Shown here piece after piece: positions 10,659 through 43,078 of a DNA stretch of 56,452 bases. Origin of the DNA: Clostridia bacterium (GTDB lineage: Bacteria; Bacillota; Clostridia; Oscillospirales; CAG-272); NCBI GenBank assembly GCA_017504625.1, contig JAFVQU010000022.1, positions 1-56,452 of the forward strand. Direction: 5' to 3'. Each line of letters starts with the position of its first letter. Within the stretch, counting starts at the first letter, position 1. The notes below the pieces were generated by a model. That model was not told where the DNA came from. It did no database searches and worked only from the letters and a program-made list of their open reading frames with translations. A program made the translations under genes and the position numbers.

Positions 10659-11095
10659 ATAACGCCCTTCTGAAGCATTATGTTAGCGTAGATCGCGCTC
10701 TCACCGGTTGCGATGATGCAGTAGCACTTCTTTGCCTCGTCGTAGAAGGCGAAGCGGTCGATGTTACCGATAGCGCTCTGACCTCTTTCATCATGCTTTG
10801 CGATTATTTCCGCGTATTTATCCCAGATAGGAGTTTCAACGCGTCCGACGTCGCGATCCATAAGCTGCATGAGAATTGCAGGCTTTTCAACGTAAGCGTC
10901 GAGAGGGAATACTGTCAGGATTGCGTCAAGAATTTCGGGAACGCCGTGACCGTCCATGCGGATAACGATAGCATCCTTGCCCATAGATTCGGAGGGGAAG
11001 TTGCCGTCTGCTATGCAGATGCGGTCGCTGTGTCCCATCTCGCAGAGAACCTTAAGAAGCTCGGGAGGAAGAATTTTCGGAATACCTTTAAGCAT
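10655..11095 (-). CDS. fucU: L-fucose mutarotase
   Basis: A 146-residue RbsD/FucU family protein that interconverts alpha and beta anomers of L-fucose so that FucI receives its preferred form. The match to E. coli FucU is clear: MLKGIPKILPPELLKVLCEMGHSD at the N-terminus, a catalytic-region His in MGHSD, INRF-like IDRFAFYDEAKK, and the ending ATGESAIYANIMLQKGV. A GAGGT site lies eight bases before the ATG. Separated from fucI by the transporter and regulator, but of the same pathway. Confidence 0.93.
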   Translation of the reverse strand: MLKGIPKILPPELLKVLCEMGHSDRICIADGNFPSESMGKDAIVIRMDGHGVPEILDAILTVFPLDAYVEKPAILMQLMDRDVGRVETPIWDKYAEIIAKHDERGQSAIGNIDRFAFYDEAKKCYCIIATGESAIYANIMLQKGVI

Positions 11096-11137
11096 AATAA
11101 ATTACCTCGTTAAAAATAGATTTTGCAGGTTAATTTC

Positions 11138-11166
11138 ATTATATCATACAAGTTTTAGCTTTGCAA
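11138..11166 (-). promoter_or_regulatory. Promoter of fucU
   Basis: On the minus strand TTGCAA (11161-11166) and TATAAT (11138-11143) are 17 bp apart, about 40 bp upstream of the fucU ATG. Confidence 0.7.
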
Positions 11167-11327
11167 TAGGTGAAAAAGATAATTTTTGACGCAAAAAAAC
11201 ACAAGAACACGGCAGAGCTGAAAGCTTAACAGTGATGTTTTTGATCCGTATCACTTGAAAGAGCTTTTTAAATATGGTTTATATCGGGGATTCGAGATAA
11301 AATAATGCTGTTTGTTTTTCCCATGGT

Positions 11328-11356
11328 TTGACAAGTTATCAAATGCATGATATAAT
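11328..11356 (+). promoter_or_regulatory. Perfect-consensus sigma-A promoter
   Basis: TTGACA (11328-11333) and TATAAT (11351-11356) with exactly 17 bp between them: both hexamers match consensus completely, predicting strong transcription from about 11363. Between this promoter and the fucU promoter (11167-11327) no gene is seen. Confidence 0.85.
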
Positions 11357-11361
11357 ATTAG

Positions 11362-11441
11362 ATAGAAATGCGGTTTCATGGGTTAATGAAACAACGGCGA
11401 TGCTGAAATCCTACACCGCATATGATAAGAGCTAATATTAT
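11362..11441 (+). ncRNA. Candidate structured 5' leader with pseudoknot potential
   Basis: The first 80 nt of the predicted transcript can fold compactly. An outer stem ATGCGGT (11368-11374) pairs with ACCGCAT (11415-11421). Inside it TTTCAT (11374-11379) pairs with ATGAAA (11386-11391); at its boundary one T is shared. The loop GGGTT can pair with AATCC (about 11407-11411), giving a pseudoknot. A 10-bp inverted repeat (11352-11361 and 11432-11441) flanks the element. It does not match a riboswitch class I can recall. Single-sequence folding only; no covariation evidence. Confidence 0.35.
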
Positions 11442-33440: not shown

Positions 33441-33905
33441 TTAGCCTAACACTTCGTTGTCACCGTCGATTTGCGCAACGGCTCCCGTGCCTGTGCCCGC
33501 TACCGCCGCGCCTTGAGTTGCAGTCGTGATAGCGACACCTGTATCCTCAAAGCCGCCGCCAAGCCCGAAGCTTACCGCTATGGCGTTATTTACCTTGCTC
33601 ATCACCGCGCTGTCGAGATGTCCCATTTTTTCCTTTAGCCTGCGCTTGTCAAGCGTCCTTATCTGCTCAAGGAGAATTACCGAATCCTTCGCAAGTCCGA
33701 CTCGGTCGGCGTAGACGTCGATATGCGTGGGCAGGCGCGTTTTGCCCATTCGTGATGTTATCGCGGCGGCTATGACAGTTGGACTGTATTTATTTCCGAC
33801 GTCGTTTTGTATTATCAGTACGGGGCGAAGTCCACCCTGCTCCGAGCCTACCACGGGACTCAGATCAGCATAAAATATATCTCCTCGCTTTATATTCGAT
33901 ATCAT
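33441..33905 (-). CDS. mazF: MazF/EndoA family endoribonuclease toxin
   Basis: A 154-residue mRNA interferase close to B. subtilis Endo[32 protein letters not shown] holds the conserved Arg and the toxin loop, and [25 protein letters not shown] is the matching second half. The usual length is about 116; here the last 40 residues are an added Gly/Ala/Thr-rich tail ([28 protein letters not shown]). AAGGA lies ten bases before the ATG. The usual antitoxin gene is not upstream: that space holds only repeats and a divergent promoter. Antitoxin elsewhere or absent. Confidence 0.93.
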
Positions 33906-34123: not shown

Positions 34124-34152
34124 TTGACAAAAACGCGCGGTCGGTGTATTAT
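34124..34152 (+). promoter_or_regulatory. Promoter of the teichoic-acid-like operon
   Basis: TTGACA (34124-34129) and TATTAT (34147-34152), 17-bp spacer; transcription from about 34159 gives a 144-nt leader containing the conserved element. The remaining upstream gap (33906-34123) shows a small GCCGC/GCGGC hairpin near mazF and nothing else clear. Confidence 0.75.
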
Positions 34153-34186: not shown

Positions 34187-34302
34187 GCGTGAAAATTAAA
34201 TGCATTTTAGAGTGAACTGCTCTGTTTCACGCGCGAATTTTGCTACGGCAAAATTCATCGATTAATATTTGTGCCGCCGCATGCGGCGAAATGGAGATTA
34301 CT
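34187..34302 (+). promoter_or_regulatory. Conserved leader element, copy A
   Basis: A leader shared with 43579-43697. Stem 1 GCGTGAA (34187-34193) pairs with TTCACGC (34226-34232) around a 32-nt loop. Stem 2 GAATTTTGC (34235-34243) pairs with GCAAAATTC (34248-34256). A linker GATTAATATTTGTGCC leads to stem 3, CGCCGC with GCGGCG (34275-34288), and AATGGAG supplies the ribosome site six bases before the ATG. The two copies agree over most of the length but precede unrelated genes. Confidence 0.7.
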
Positions 34303-36132
34303 ATGAGTTCGAGATCTGATAAAAAAATAAATACTTACACAAGAGGGAGGAAAAGACGGCAGTATTCGCTGATAAGAAAACTACCGACGGCTATTCTGCT
34401 CTCTATCGTAGCTCCGCTTACGATTTGCCTTTTCGGCCCGTTTGAAACCTATTGCGGAAACGTAAGCGAATTTACCTTCGCGCTTGGTGATTTTCTTCCT
34501 TACGTGGCGGGGATCGCAGTAGCCTGCGCGGCGGTATTGTTCGCCTTGCTTATGATACTTGACGGCAAGGTGTTTGATATTGCGTCTGCGCTTGTTCTTG
34601 CCTTGACTGTTCTTACATTCGCGCAGAAATATTACCTCAATCTCGGCGTAAACGCTCTTGCGGGCGACGGCGTCGGAGTGACGGAGGTTGGCGCGCCTGC
34701 AACGTTTGTAAACGCGCTTATCTGGGTGCTTGTAATAGCGGGAGCTGTCACGGCGGCGCTCTTGCTCAAAAACCAGAATAAAGCGAGATTTTTCGTATGC
34801 ACCGCGCTTGTGCTTATGGCAGTTTTGGTAACTCAGACCGTTGGATGTATTGCAGTATCGACCGAGCTTGACGTAAACTCCGAGCAAGCCTCAGGTGTTA
34901 CCGCGCAAAATCCCGAAAATGCCAACAGAGAGCCTCAGATGCTTACCTACGAAAATCTCAACGAGCTTTCAAGCGGAAAAAACATAGTGTTTTTCCTTAT
35001 TGACCGCTTTGACGTGAGATATTTTGAAAGATTACAGAAGAATGATCCCGAGTTTTTGGCAAAGCTTGACGGATTTACCTTCTATAATGATTACACCAGC
35101 CTTTATTGCCGTACCTATCCTGCAATTGCATCGATATTGACGGGCAAGGAAAACGACTTTGAGGACAGCAGACTTAATTTCTTCAAGGAGATATACACCG
35201 ACGGCGGACATCTGCGAGATCTTCACGACGCGGGCTACGATATCAACGTATACACCGAAAAATATTACGCATACGACGATGCATACTATATGTCCGATTA
35301 CGTTAAGAATATATCGGGCGTAAACGGATACGAGATAGACAACAACCTTGCGCTCTCGACCGATATGCTCCGTCTTTCGCTCAGCACCTGCTTGCCTTTC
35401 GTGGCAAAGGATGCGGTCGGCTATATGAGTACTCCCGATTTCAACGCTCACGCAATATACGAGTCGGACGAGCCCGTTTATGACGCCGATATGAAGAACG
35501 TTTACGAATATATCACGCAAAACGAATTTGTGACCGAGAAAAGTGAGGGACAGTTCAGCTTTATCCATATATACGGATGCCACACACCCTTGAAGTATAA
35601 TCTTAATTGGGAAGAGGCAAACGATAAGGAAAAGAACGATACCTCAATAGCGCTCAAGCAAAGTCTTACCATCATATACGAATATATTGAAGAAATGAAG
35701 CGACTCGGAGTTTACGACGATGCGACGATTGTTATTACGGGAGACCACCCCGCCGCGCTCAGCGACACCAAGCTTATCGGTGAAACGGGCAGAAGCGACG
35801 ACAACGGAACGCGCATTACGGCGATGCTTTTCAAGAGATCGGGCGAGAGCGGCACGGCGCTTAAAACAAGCACCGCTCAGATCTCGCAGGACGAGCTTTG
35901 GGCAACGATATACGAGTCTGAGGGACTTACTTCGCTTAAGACGGGCGAATCCTTCTTTGATATCATAGAGGGAGAAGATAGAACGAGAAGATATCTCTTT
36001 GAGATGTCTGTCACTCTTGAGGACAAGTCGCGCGCCGACGAAATAGTGACCTACAAGATCGTGGGAAGCGCAAGAAATAAGGATAACTGGTCTGTTGAGG
36101 ATCGCAGGGTTATCGGCAAGATATATAAATAA
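34303..36132 (+). CDS. Alkaline phosphatase/LTA-synthase-like membrane protein
   Basis: A 609-residue protein. The N-terminal 190 residues contain about five transmembrane segments; the rest is an extracellular sulfatase/alkaline-phosphatase-superfamily domain. GKNIVFFLIDRFDVRYFERL is the metal-binding first strand, CRTYPAIASILTG occupies the nucleophile region (Thr or Ser where LTA synthase has Thr), FSFIHIYGCHTPLKY and ATIVITGDHPAAL are later metal-site motifs. LtaS-type enzymes transfer glycerol phosphate from phosphatidylglycerol; this may do so or remove such groups. GGAG lies six bases before the ATG. First gene of an operon with a YidC-glycerophosphotransferase fusion 14 bp downstream. 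Confidence 0.78.
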   Translation: MSSRSDKKINTYTRGRKRRQYSLIRKLPTAILLSIVAPLTICLFGPFETYCGNVSEFTFALGDFLPYVAGIAVACAAVLFALLMILDGKVFDIASALVLALTVLTFAQKYYLNLGVNALAGDGVGVTEVGAPATFVNALIWVLVIAGAVTAALLLKNQNKARFFVCTALVLMAVLVTQTVGCIAVSTELDVNSEQASGVTAQNPENANREPQMLTYENLNELSSGKNIVFFLIDRFDVRYFERLQKNDPEFLAKLDGFTFYNDYTSLYCRTYPAIASILTGKENDFEDSRLNFFKEIYTDGGHLRDLHDAGYDINVYTEKYYAYDDAYYMSDYVKNISGVNGYEIDNNLALSTDMLRLSLSTCLPFVAKDAVGYMSTPDFNAHAIYESDEPVYDADMKNVYEYITQNEFVTEKSEGQFSFIHIYGCHTPLKYNLNWEEANDKEKNDTSIALKQSLTIIYEYIEEMKRLGVYDDATIVITGDHPAALSDTKLIGETGRSDDNGTRITAMLFKRSGESGTALKTSTAQISQDELWATIYESEGLTSLKTGESFFDIIEGEDRTRRYLFEMSVTLEDKSRADEIVTYKIVGSARNKDNWSVEDRRVIGKIYK

Positions 36133-36146
36133 TTTCGGAGAAAATA

Positions 36147-38222
36147 ATGGATCAGATACTGTATTACATCTGCATTCCGCTTGGAGTGCTGATGAAATGG
36201 TGCTGGCAGCTGCTTGGCAATTACGGTCTTGCCGTTTTGCTCTTTACGCTTGCCACCAAATTAGTTCTTTTACCTATCTCGGTATGGATACACAAGAATT
36301 CGATTCTTATGGTCAAGATACAGCCCGAGATGAATATGCTCAAGGTCAAGTATAACGGTGATAGTCAGACGCTTGCAACCGAGCAGACAAAGCTTTTCAA
36401 AAGGGCAAAATACCGCCCGATGCTGACGCTTGTTCCTCTCGTTTTGCAGATAGTGCTTTTGCTTGGAGTTGTCTATATTATCAACCGCCCTCTGACTTAT
36501 CTCTTCGGCGTGGAAAGTGCCGATATTCTCTCTCTGGCGGGTGCGGCGGGAATGAATCTTGAGTCCTCGTCCTACGAGCTTTCGCTTATCGAGGCGGTAC
36601 GCGCGGGAAGCTACGCTCTGCCCGAAAATTTCGCGTGGGTGGGCGATAAGATAGCGGCTTTTGACAGTAGCTTTTTAGGGCTTGAGCTTGCGACGATACC
36701 GACGGCGGTATGGGGAATTTACACCTTGATCCCGCTTCTTGCCGCGGCATCATCATGGCTTCTTTGCTTTGCGCAAAATAAAGCAAACGTGCTTCAGCAC
36801 GAGCAGGGAAATGGCAACAAATACGGCACGATGATATTCTCGGTCTGCCTCTCGCTTTATCTCGGCTGCTTCGTGCCTGCGGGTATCGCGCTTTACTGGA
36901 TGGCGGGAAATATTCTGTCCGTCATACAGCTTTTGTTGCTCAACGCGGCAATAAGCCCGAAAAGATACGTCGATTACGAGGCGCTTGAGGAGAGCCGCAA
37001 GGCTCTTGCGGAGCTTAGATTAGACGAGGCTGCAGAGGCTAAGAAAAACAAAGAAAAGGAAAACCGCCGTCGCGAGAGTGCCGACTACAAGAGATTTTTC
37101 TCTATCGCAAACAAGCACCTCGTTATATATTCGGAAAAGAGCGGATTTTATAAGTATTTCAAGGGAATTATCAAGGAGCTGCTTGCGCGCTCCGATATGG
37201 TGATACATTACGTCACCAATGATCCCGACGACGTTATTTTTGAGATCGCCAAGAAGAACCGCCGCATAAAGCCATACTATATCGGACTTAAAAAGACGAT
37301 AAGCCTGATGCTTAAGCTTGAGTGTGATATCTGCGTTATGACGACGCCCGATCTCGACAAATATTACCTAAAAAAGTCCAAAATGAAGAAGGATATCGAG
37401 TATATCTACATTCCTCACGCGCTTATGAGTATGCATATGGGAATGAAGGAGGGCTCGCTTGACGCCTTTGATACTATCTTCTGCGCAGGAGAGCATATAA
37501 AGAGGGAGGTTCGCGCGACAGAGCGTGTTTACGGATTGGCAAGCAAGGAGTGCGTCGAGTTCGGCTATCCTCTCGTTGACGACCTCATCCCGCTTGGCGA
37601 GGAGGAAAGAAGAACGCACAAGAAGGGCGGCAGACGAGAGATACTTATCGCACCGACCTGGAACGAGGATAATATCCTTGACAGCTGTATTGACGAGATG
37701 CTTGAAAAGCTCCTTTGCGACGAGTATCATATCACCGTCCGTCCTCACCCCGAGTATGTAAAGAGATTCGGGCAGAGAATGAACGCAACGGTTGAGCGTT
37801 GGAAGGATAAAGTCGGCGAGGGACTTAGCTTTGAGCTTGACTTCTCAAGCAATAAGTCTACCTATTCCTCCGATCTTATGATAACCGACTGGTCGGGAAT
37901 TTCGTTTGAGTTCAGCTTCGCAACCAAGCGTCCGACTCTCTTCGTAAACACAAAAATGAAGGTGCTTAACGAAAATTGGCAAAAGATAGACTGCACGCCT
38001 ATTGAGATCACTCTCCGTGACGAGATCGGCATGTCGATAGAAAAGAGCGACGTTAAAAATATCGGCGAGATAGTCAAGGACACGTTTAAGAGATCGACCG
38101 AGTACAAAAAGAGGATTGAGGCCGCGCTTCATAAAGCGGTGTATAACGTCGGGCACTCTGATCCCGTCGGAGCGAAGTATATTTTGAGAAGACTTGTTGA
38201 GATACAGGAGGGAAGAAAATGA
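36147..38222 (+). CDS. YidC/Oxa1 insertase domain fused to CDP-glycerol glycerophosphotransferase-like domain
   Basis: A 691-residue fusion. Residues 1-290 read as a YidC/Oxa1 core: GNYGLAVLLFTLATKLVLLPIS, then KIQPEMNMLKVKYNGD, TKLFKRAKYRPM, and FVPAGIALYWMAGNILSVIQ. The groove Arg of YidC appears replaced by Lys (about residue 38). A charged linker (about 290-325) leads to a TagB/TagF-type domain: IYIPHALMSMHMGMKEGSLDAFDTIFCAGEHIKREV, ILIAPTWNED, ITVRPHPEYVKR and DLMITDWSGISFEFSFATKRPTLFVNT. These two domains are normally separate proteins. It suggests a polymerase held at, or helped by, a membrane insertase-like unit. Stop overlaps the next gene by four bases. Confidence 0.88.
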   Translation: MDQILYYICIPLGVLMKWCWQLLGNYGLAVLLFTLATKLVLLPISVWIHKNSILMVKIQPEMNMLKVKYNGDSQTLATEQTKLFKRAKYRPMLTLVPLVLQIVLLLGVVYIINRPLTYLFGVESADILSLAGAAGMNLESSSYELSLIEAVRAGSYALPENFAWVGDKIAAFDSSFLGLELATIPTAVWGIYTLIPLLAAASSWLLCFAQNKANVLQHEQGNGNKYGTMIFSVCLSLYLGCFVPAGIALYWMAGNILSVIQLLLLNAAISPKRYVDYEALEESRKALAELRLDEAAEAKKNKEKENRRRESADYKRFFSIANKHLVIYSEKSGFYKYFKGIIKELLARSDMVIHYVTNDPDDVIFEIAKKNRRIKPYYIGLKKTISLMLKLECDICVMTTPDLDKYYLKKSKMKKDIEYIYIPHALMSMHMGMKEGSLDAFDTIFCAGEHIKREVRATERVYGLASKECVEFGYPLVDDLIPLGEEERRTHKKGGRREILIAPTWNEDNILDSCIDEMLEKLLCDEYHITVRPHPEYVKRFGQRMNATVERWKDKVGEGLSFELDFSSNKSTYSSDLMITDWSGISFEFSFATKRPTLFVNTKMKVLNENWQKIDCTPIEITLRDEIGMSIEKSDVKNIGEIVKDTFKRSTEYKKRIEAALHKAVYNVGHSDPVGAKYILRRLVEIQEGRK

Positions 38223-38494
38223 TCTTTAATTTTTTGATCGGCACGGTCGCAGAGCTTGATCCCGTATCGCTTTACATTGACCCGACCGCGATAACCACCT
38301 CTCTCGTATCCGCAAGCGGAATCATAATCGCGCTTGGCGCGTCGGCGGGTGTCATTCTCGGAAAGGCGGCAACGATAAGCGCAAATCTAAGCGTTTTCAC
38401 GGCAAAAATAAGCCGCTTCTTCCTTAACGTTTTCGGAGTTGTAGAGTACGGAGGCAAGACGTTTGAGCCCGAGATCACGGTAAAGAAAAAATAA
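38219..38494 (+). CDS. Small membrane protein of the polymer operon
   Basis: A 91-residue protein translationally coupled to the fusion gene (ATGA overlap). One or two hydrophobic segments: a start MIFNFLIG, then SLYIDPTAITTSLVSASGIIIALGASAGVILG. The YIDP motif followed by small residues recalls YIDPGTGS-type small membrane proteins seen beside polysaccharide genes. A basic, Phe-rich amphipathic segment (KISRFFLNVFGV) and a VKKK end follow. No family name assigned. Probably an assembly or anchoring partner of the fusion protein. Confidence 0.75.
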   Translation: MIFNFLIGTVAELDPVSLYIDPTAITTSLVSASGIIIALGASAGVILGKAATISANLSVFTAKISRFFLNVFGVVEYGGKTFEPEITVKKK

Positions 38495-38508: not shown

Positions 38509-38541
38509 AAAAATGCGCCCGAAAATGTGGGCGCATTTTTT
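38509..38541 (+). terminator. Terminator of the teichoic-acid-like operon
   Basis: AAAATGCGCCC (38510-38520) pairs with GGGCGCATTTT (38529-38539), eight-base loop, T-rich 3' side. Confidence 0.9.
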
Positions 38542-42281: not shown

Positions 42282-42520
42282 AGTGTTCTCCTTGTTATTT
42301 AAAAAATTCACGGTTGTTTATTAACTCAGTATTAACAAACACGATTATACCATAAAAAAACGCCTTTGTCAATGATACAACATCTTATTTGGAAAAATAA
42401 AAAGTGCAAAATAATACAAAAAAAGAGGTAAATTAAGGTTTTTTGAGAAAATATCTTGATTTTTTCCGCGTTTTGTATTATGATTATATACGTAGAAAAA
42501 ATTTACATCTGGAGGCTAAT

Positions 42521-43078
42521 ATGGCAAAGAAACAGAGAAAGAAATCTACCTTTTGGGAAGACTTCAAAAAGTTTATAACAAAGGGCAACGTCATTGATAT
42601 GGCTGTTGCGGTAGTAATAGGCGGTGCGTTCGGAAAGATCACCACAGGCCTCGTAAACTACATAATCACTCCTCTTACAAGCATTTTCCTTGGCGAGATA
42701 GACCTTACCGGCGTAAAGACCGTGCTCGTTGACGAGGTTCTTAACGAGGCGGGTGAAGTGACAACTCCCGAGGTTGCTATTCTTTGGGGACAGTGGATAC
42801 AGACCATCATCGACTTCCTTATTATCGCATTCGTTATCTTCGTCGTTCTTCGTATTATTATGAACGTGAAGAATAAGCTTGGTGAGAAGGAAGCAGAGGA
42901 TATGGCTCTTGCGGCGGCTGAAGCAAAGGCGATCGCTGACGCAGAGGCGGCAGAGAAGGCAGAAAAGGCTGCAGAGGAGAAGGCAAGACTTGAGGCTCGT
43001 GAGAACGAGTTCTATGCAAACGTTGCAAAGCAGGCAGAGCTTCTTGCCGAAATTCGCGACGCAGTAAAGAAGCAGTAA
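42521..43078 (+). CDS. mscL: Large-conductance mechanosensitive channel with extended coiled-coil tail
   Basis: A tension-gated channel that vents solutes on osmotic downshock. FITKGNVIDMAVAVVIGGAFGKI is the first membrane helix of MscL and WIQTIIDFLIIAFVIFVVLRI the second. The family is typically about 130-150 residues; this 185-residue form has an extra Ala/Glu/Lys-rich helix (residues about 125-185), probably a pentameric coiled coil in the cytoplasm. A GGAGG site is placed before the ATG at 42521; the longer open frame is rejected. It is followed by a small TM2-like gene. Confidence 0.93.
   Translation: MAKKQRKKSTFWEDFKKFITKGNVIDMAVAVVIGGAFGKITTGLVNYIITPLTSIFLGEIDLTGVKTVLVDEVLNEAGEVTTPEVAILWGQWIQTIIDFLIIAFVIFVVLRIIMNVKNKLGEKEAEDMALAAAEAKAIADAEAAEKAEKAAEEKARLEARENEFYANVAKQAELLAEIRDAVKKQ

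Follow-up and report, generated by a model that had tools for sequence, protein, structure and literature searches.

An operon with a YidC–PF04464 fusion, a lipoteichoic acid synthase-like enzyme and a YIDP protein in Clostridia: a possible machine for envelope tailoring

The window considered here, a stretch of 56,452 nucleotides from a Clostridia bacterium (contig JAFVQU010000022.1 of assembly GCA_017504625.1), is contig 24 of a 1.96 Mb genome (G000) which is 97% complete. Its forward strand carries a compact three-gene operon that may serve the tailoring of the cell envelope. The first gene (34303..36132) encodes a membrane phosphotransferase of 609 amino acids (aa) resembling lipoteichoic acid (LTA) synthase (LTAS-like); it starts with ATG, the mechanically called open reading frame (ORF) beginning at a TTG at 34240. 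After 14 bp follows the gene of a 691-aa protein (36147..38222) in which, according to an ORF check and Pfam, a YidC domain is joined to a TagB/TagF-type transferase domain (PF04464). The third gene (38219..38494) overlaps the stop codon of the fusion by 4 bp (ATGA) and encodes a 91-aa protein, here called YIDP. Upstream of the operon a consensus scan places a promoter-like site at 34124..34152 (+; TTGACA and TATTAT with a spacer of 17, 11/12 matches), one of 11 such sites in the region compared with a mean of 6.6 in shuffled sequence; downstream, an intrinsic-terminator-like hairpin of 13 pairs (38509..38540, +) was found by pattern matching. This three-gene unit had been proposed in a sequence-only reading and was recovered with the same boundaries.

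The fusion proposed in that reading proved to be real, both halves being members of named families with matches above the curated cut-offs. The YidC/Oxa1 domain (residues 26-266; 36222..36944, +) matches PF02096 (E 2.5e-28, 99.5 bits, cut-off 35) as well as TIGR03592 (94.7 bits, cut-off 84.3) and contains the groove residue Lys38 and a type-specific QNxxNVLQxEQ sequence at 210-220. The transferase domain, delimited by Pfam and motif alignment (residues 322-601; 37110..37949, +), matches PF04464 (E 3e-15, 56.5 bits, cut-off 22.1). Within it H424, an RPHP motif (residues 532-535; 37740-37751, +) and a TDWS motif (residues 580-583; 37884-37895, +) are invariant in 45 aligned rows, and we take these to be the catalytic motifs of the domain. 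By profile comparison the nearest solved sequences are Cps3D (8qoy, E 1.3e-6) and TarL (8va1, E 1.2e-4). Compared with ordinary PF04464 proteins the fused transferases make up a narrow, separate group; searching 32 control genomes with a profile built from them gave nothing at E 1e-10.

The lysine in the groove is indeed present, as had been pointed out, but it is not a special mark of the fusion because most of the ordinary YidC proteins compared have it as well (19 of 24 rows). Among the rows of fusions of the window's type the residue is Lys in 91 of 94 and Arg in the other three. An ordinary YidC is encoded on contig 17 of the window genome, next to genes which by eye resemble RnpA, YidD and Jag, so the fusion is an extra paralogue; a second YidC match was found in all 14 fusion-carrying genomes among 59 relatives. 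A hydropathy sketch of the window proteins agrees with a transferase on the inside and an LTAS domain on the outside, the helix counts of the long fusions being uncertain.

In the LTAS-like protein five N-terminal hydrophobic helices are followed by a sulfatase-fold domain (PF00884, E 1.3e-9), and its profile matches LtaS (2w5q) with E 4.9e-10. Against NCBIfam no LTA synthase family was matched at E 1, just weak matches to PehA and Pal being obtained. The active-site residues are conserved, which supports the LTA-synthase-like partner named in the sequence-only reading: in an alignment of 74 proteins (that of the window and 73 ORFs from 65 loci) D234, H427, D481 and H482 occur in 74/74 and T271 (codon at 35113, +) in 73/74, with one Ser. 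By analogy with LtaS these are presumably the metal ligands and the nucleophile. The protein thus appears to fit a membrane-anchored sulfatase-fold enzyme with a putative threonine nucleophile. At two loci the counterpart of this protein, encoded directly upstream of the fusion, possesses three peptidoglycan-binding repeats (PG_binding_1; L115:5938-7929 and L120:5923-7929), and in L120 its sulfatase match is above the Pfam cut-off. Additional copies of the gene also exist: a second, shorter one with a lipoprotein-like start lies upstream of the main copy in L033 (3158-4525) and L034 (1852-3204), and L056 and L123 have three copies each.

The YIDP protein consists of a Tyr-Ile-Asp-Pro motif followed by a hydrophobic helix and has no Pfam or NCBIfam match at E 1. 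A model built from ten near-relative proteins, some of them from genomes also represented in the 80 loci described below, matched 77 ORFs, 74 of which show Y-[ILV]-D-[PAIV] within the first 70 residues. Some of these ORFs have, by eye, a signal-peptide-like start ahead of the motif and a charged tail behind the helix. Outside Bacillota the best 30 of 60 plasmid matches all had E >= 3, and two contexts examined showed no link.

Full-length fusions are present in 14 of the 59 relatives, the window genome included, with the copy of G036 being two pieces of one open frame. In 398 genomes drawn across the phylum just two were found, one of which is the window's own. Within the family, 52 of 254 genomes have the fusion among the matches listed; these include three split copies (G485, G566, G633), one partial copy (G642) and one with an in-frame TGA (G607). 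A single scan of named genomes yielded 502 relatives, the best 80 of which are the loci considered here. They are assigned to Clostridia, Clostridiales, Eubacteriales, Oscillospiraceae, Ruminococcaceae, Ruminococcus, Lachnospiraceae or Solobacterium; 78 are marked as metagenome-assembled genomes, and many come from rumen or hindgut. The three-gene order recurs in this survey. In 75/80 loci the fusion is followed within 600 bp by a YIDP gene of the same strand, and among near relatives such a gene stands beside the fusion in the window and in 12 of 13 loci, L040 being without. The LTAS-like gene is upstream on the same strand in 59/80, downstream in four and on the opposite strand in another four. 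L117, which is counted as opposite-strand and as lacking YIDP, also has a downstream YIDP-LTAS fusion.

An assembly artefact was rejected as the origin of the fusion, since homologous fusions occur in relatives, 78 of the 80 loci have it in a single open frame and an ordinary YidC exists in the same genome. The other two are L122, cut by the contig end, and L128 (8001-10099), split into two frames. For this locus, as for the split ORFs of G485, G566 and G633 and the in-frame stop of G607, a real break and an assembly error are indistinguishable.

Four modules, namely the YIDP helix, PF04464, YidC and the LTAS-like domain, recur in exchanged combinations: YidC-PF04464 (type 1, as in the window), YidC-LTAS, YIDP-PF04464 and YIDP-LTAS. 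In the type-2 arrangement, found in other members of the family and phylum at L046 (twice), L047, L048, L049, L154, L155 and L156, a small protein of 412-432 aa with an N-terminal YIDP helix and a PF04464-like part is paired with a large protein of 912-936 aa that begins with YidC and ends with an LTAS-like domain. The two genes are adjacent except in L156, where about 5.6 kb with phosphonate genes lie between them and the large protein is that of L161. A Pfam check covered one small and three large proteins out of eight of either kind; it gave PF04464 and PF02096 matches above cut-off in each, and Sulfatase above cut-off in L046 and L047. Mixed forms also occur: the YidC-PF04464 fusion adjoins a YIDP-LTAS fusion in L157 (YIDP part by eye), and YIDP-LTAS proteins stand beside YidC-PF04464 in L117. 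Such exchanges argue strongly, if indirectly, for a common process in which all four modules take part.

The YidC core residues P43, Y250 and W251 are retained in both fusion types, and row comparison shows that the fused domains carry invariant residues of their own. In type 2 the basic groove residue is replaced by Asn or Gln in 8/8 rows, so that no positive charge is found at this position. The YidC parts of each fusion type form their own clade with a support of 100/100, in a tree for which 30 of the 93 type-1 rows were picked at random (28 after removal of identical rows). Since YidC is fused either to a cytosolic enzyme or to a presumably extracytoplasmic one, its placement suits a step between them.

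Genes near the fusion in the 80 loci include several that resemble those for the activation and uptake of phosphonates or phosphocholine. Most frequent are a winged-helix nucleotidyltransferase (26 loci) and the ATPase (20), permease (15) and binding protein (14) of an ATP-binding cassette (ABC) transporter, followed by a class-V aminotransferase (six), a TagD-like protein (five) and phosphoenolpyruvate (PEP) mutase (four). For representatives of the nucleotidyltransferase the best solved match is LicC (1jyk, 4e-27), and the transporter genes are nearest to PhnT2, PhnU2 and PhnS2 of 2-aminoethylphosphonate uptake. In the type-2 loci L155 and L156 (the latter partly by eye) there are PEP mutase, a thiamine-diphosphate enzyme resembling phosphonopyruvate decarboxylase, a class-V aminotransferase and the nucleotidyltransferase, and type-2 L046 has choline-kinase, nucleotidyltransferase and EamA genes. 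In L153 phosphonate genes were seen, partly by eye, beside an unfused PF04464 gene, a small gene with the motif YSDP and LTAS-like genes. An 860-aa protein of G031, a genome also possessing YidC-PF04464, combines a PhnU2-like permease (below cut-off) with a LicC/PntC-like nucleotidyltransferase (L181:5676-8258).

The same association is seen at the level of genomes. Among the matches listed for the 254 family genomes, a marker gene (nucleotidyltransferase or PEP mutase) accompanies the system in 59 of 61 genomes, compared with 17 of the 193 that lack the system (Fisher p 1.6e-39, ignoring kinship). The 61 span 25 genera and are a lower bound, as further type-2 genomes may lie beyond the weakest matches listed. 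The fusion is present in 52 of them and a type-2-like transferase in 13, four having both; the type-2-like genomes were called by a match to the transferase half of the profile only. A tighter type-2 profile applied to 51 of the 254 genomes found two more, both with a marker gene, which gives 61/63 versus 15/191 in a table corrected where tested. In the window's genus the marker occurs in four of five carriers and in none of three non-carriers of this set. For 48 of the 59 relatives (G039 and G049-G058 left out) the figures are 14/16 with the system and 0/32 without it; four extra hit-holding genomes stand outside this count, with the marker in G303, G373 and G430. Fusion and nucleotidyltransferase share a contig in 24 of the 44 genomes having both, their starts lying 0.8-8.9 kb apart in 23 and 47 kb apart in one.

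The window genome itself contains PEP mutase, phosphonopyruvate decarboxylase and cytidylyltransferase domains, the set connected with PntC-type tailoring. On contig 12 a 669-aa protein consists of nucleotidyltransferase-like, cytidylyltransferase-like and PEP mutase parts; the PEP mutase match reaches 407 bits (cut-off 320) and that of phosphonopyruvate decarboxylase 460 bits (cut-off 312). The middle domain of the 669-aa protein best matches PDB 5x3d (E 8e-43), an entry titled phosphoenolpyruvate phosphomutase which we take to represent the cytidylyltransferase portion of the fosfomycin-synthesis protein Fom1. A phosphonate activated with cytidine monophosphate (CMP) is therefore the likely donor in this organism. 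Because a gene for an iron-dependent alcohol dehydrogenase lies between those of PEP mutase and phosphonopyruvate decarboxylase, and no aminotransferase gene was seen beside them, 2-hydroxyethylphosphonate, delivered as CMP-2-hydroxyethylphosphonate, would be a first guess for the donor group. More generally, the fused transferase would probably use a donor other than cytidine diphosphate (CDP)-glycerol, the genomic context favouring a CMP-phosphonate or CDP-choline. A polyglycerol-phosphate polymer, which the sequence-only reading had suggested as product, is thus unsupported: the co-occurring genes resemble those of aminoethylphosphonate or phosphocholine activation, and phosphonate genes are present in the window genome. 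The same contig 12 also harbours a separate glycan locus with LicD, an ordinary PF04464 protein and a TagD-like protein (L158:6806-8815 and 10974-11438).

Taken together, it seems about evenly balanced whether the operon encodes a load-flip-transfer machine of three proteins and four modules for envelope tailoring, in which the donor, the lipid and the flipping are the inferred parts. The reading builds on the modules, their conserved active-site residues, their co-localisation, the swapped fusions and the tendency of a LicC/PntC-like nucleotidyltransferase or PEP mutase to be present in the same genomes. First, the cytosolic PF04464 domain would load a CMP- or CDP-activated head group, such as 2-hydroxyethyl- or 2-aminoethyl-phosphonate or phosphocholine, onto a membrane lipid. 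The YidC domain, rather than inserting proteins, might then move the loaded lipid across the membrane via its hydrophilic groove with the help of the YIDP helix. Finally, the LTAS-like enzyme could take the head group off the lipid and attach it, via its putative Thr nucleophile, to a polymer of the wall or surface; the peptidoglycan-binding repeats of the proteins in its place in L115 and L120 support the wall as target. The position of YidC between a cytosolic and an extracytoplasmic transferase of phospho-groups suggests a translocation step. Passages of PMC10491306 describe that Escherichia coli YidC and other proteins of the Oxa1 family scramble lipids in vitro or in simulation, and this together with the placement of YidC favours the load-flip-transfer sequence. 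The earlier idea of the insertase part as a lipid channel would fit the fusion swaps and the scrambling described in these passages. In its most specific form, to which we give slightly less than an even chance, a branch of YidC/Oxa1 would have specialised as a flippase for lipids loaded with a head group; joined to an enzyme on either side of the membrane, it would form with the YIDP helix a phosphonate or phosphocholine tailoring machine of the cell surface for the steps after CMP activation.

Several observations weigh against this proposal. The modules are not always complete, as a separate YIDP gene was not found in 5/80 loci and an LTAS-like gene was not present in the locus stretch examined in 13/80. 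Sulfatase matches fall below the Pfam cut-off in the type-2 protein of L049 and, just, in L115. The tree separates the two kinds of fused YidC, but an approximately unbiased (AU) test does not reject a single clade (p-AU 0.41). Furthermore, the phosphonate genes of the window genome are on a different contig from the fusion, and the alcohol dehydrogenase between them matches no curated family above cut-off. Matches to PhnS2/T2/U2 and of PhnW-like proteins are likewise below the curated cut-offs, the ATPase being nearly as good with other transporter families. At the sites corresponding to LicC D105 and D192, as named in part of PMC6697681, the nucleotidyltransferase has Glu and Asp, respectively, by alignment count; therefore 2-aminoethylphosphonate and phosphocholine are indistinguishable as its substrates. 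The co-occurrence has exceptions in both directions: 17 genomes had the marker without a fusion or type-2 transferase among the matches listed (two of the 17 later showed a matching transferase), and the fusion genomes G009 and G480 of the family set as well as G036 and G451 of the smaller comparison, the last being the fourth of the extra genomes, have neither marker at the thresholds used.

The TagD-like cytidylyltransferase near the fusion in five of the 80 loci would rather fit CDP-glycerol and thus synthesis of a teichoic acid type, in which the PF04464 domain primes or lengthens a glycerol-phosphate chain, the LTAS-like enzyme adds glycerol-phosphate from phosphatidylglycerol on the outside and YidC anchors or exports the product. 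The family names of both enzymes and their nearest solved relatives (Cps3D, TarL and LtaS) point the same way. However, the TagD-like protein remains below the TIGR01518 cut-off (119.7 bits, cut-off 165.4), and in the window genome such a gene, also below cut-off, is located on a contig other than that of the fusion, with another PF04464 gene, of the ordinary kind, at a distance of about 2 kb. As the genomes with the system instead share genes resembling phosphonate or phosphocholine activation, and the fused transferases are a narrow group absent at E 1e-10 from the control genomes, we regard this explanation as unlikely. Somewhat more unlikely still are two others that concern the YidC part. 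It could have remained an insertase that serves just the multi-spanning LTAS-like enzyme and YIDP, the fusion being for assembly alone, which agrees with its PF02096 and TIGR03592 matches, with the groove Lys kept in type 1 and with the resemblance of both partners to membrane proteins; but an ordinary YidC is already present in the window genome, a second YidC match occurs in all 14 fusion genomes among the relatives, and type 2 has Asn or Gln instead of the basic groove residue. Alternatively, and with an equally low probability, YidC would be a mere membrane anchor keeping the transferase near a lipid-linked glycan exported by other flippases. PF04464 enzymes normally work on lipid-linked acceptors at the inner membrane face, as this would demand. 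An anchor, however, does not account for the core residues P43, Y250 and W251 being kept in both fusion types, and it gives no reason why YidC should be joined to the LTAS-like enzyme in type 2.

Some neighbouring genes deserve mention in their own right. Downstream of the operon the window encodes a class-V aminotransferase (PF00266; 38680-39804, +) with its own promoter-like site; by eye, it and the next ORF resemble serine biosynthesis, and it is also found beside the fusion in L033-L036. Divergent from the operon is a PemK/MazF-like toxin gene (33441-33905, −; PF02452, 6.1e-36) with a low-complexity Ala/Thr/Gly tail. Further away lie the genes of a stand-alone acyl-carrier-like protein (PF00550; 42066-42311, −) and of an MscL (42443-43078, +) with, by eye, a long charged C-terminal extension. 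In other genomes a small signal-peptidase-I-like gene is near the fusion (L042:6132-6731, L043:6424-6927, L044:2416-2982 and L157:3252-3713), Peptidase_S26 being confirmed for L042 and L043 and the other two assigned by eye. A small membrane protein, GtrA-like by eye, also stands beside the fusion of L157 (8202-8798).

Every enzyme part of the operon belongs to a known superfamily, and the assembly itself appears undescribed in the literature searched. In PubMed Central full text, to which the search was confined, neither a description of a YidC-PF04464 assembly, nor a mention of YIDPGTGS as one form of the YIDP motif, nor a combination of YidC with phosphonate biosynthesis was found, in line with the sequence-only reading, which knew of no characterised system of this kind; a single paper, on LcpA, came up for the fusion, and none connected hydroxyethylphosphonate with an exopolysaccharide and a cytidylyltransferase. 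The closest parallel in logic is offered by the CsbB-GtcA-YfhO glycosylation systems, in which lipid loading in the cytosol, transfer across the membrane and attachment outside follow each other (PMC7389260 and PMC8035078, in part, along with general knowledge). In contrast to these, the three operon products, for which Pfam was searched, contain neither a GtcA/GtrA flippase nor a GT-C transferase; the operon would move a phosphorus-linked group instead of a sugar, with a YidC domain fused to a transferase as the translocator. PntC pathways employ PEP mutase, phosphonopyruvate decarboxylase and a cytidylyltransferase to activate the phosphonate with which the surface is tailored, and the steps that follow are described as enigmatic in PMC6697681. 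A term search of its main text finds LicD once and YidC, glycerophosphotransferase, sulfatase and insertase never. If the proposal is true, the operon provides candidate enzymes for these steps after CMP activation and suggests that Clostridia of rumen and gut bear phosphonate or phosphocholine modifications yet to be described.

With LtaS and related headgroup transferases the LTAS-like protein has in common the five N-terminal helices, the sulfatase fold and the Thr, Asp and His residues; unlike them it does not match an LTA synthase family of NCBIfam, and its relatives are fused to YidC or YIDP. Similarly, the transferase shares the family match and the RxH and TD[WY]S motifs with TagB, TagF and TarL, but it is fused to YidC or to the YIDP helix and set apart as a narrow group. 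If the proposal holds, lipid translocation, reported in vitro or in simulation in the passages of PMC10491306 mentioned above, would become the basis of a biological task for the insertase superfamily. The type-1 fusion shares the PF02096 core and the groove Lys with the YidC/Oxa1 insertases, yet differs from them by its separate clade, its own invariant residues and the enzyme domain attached to it.

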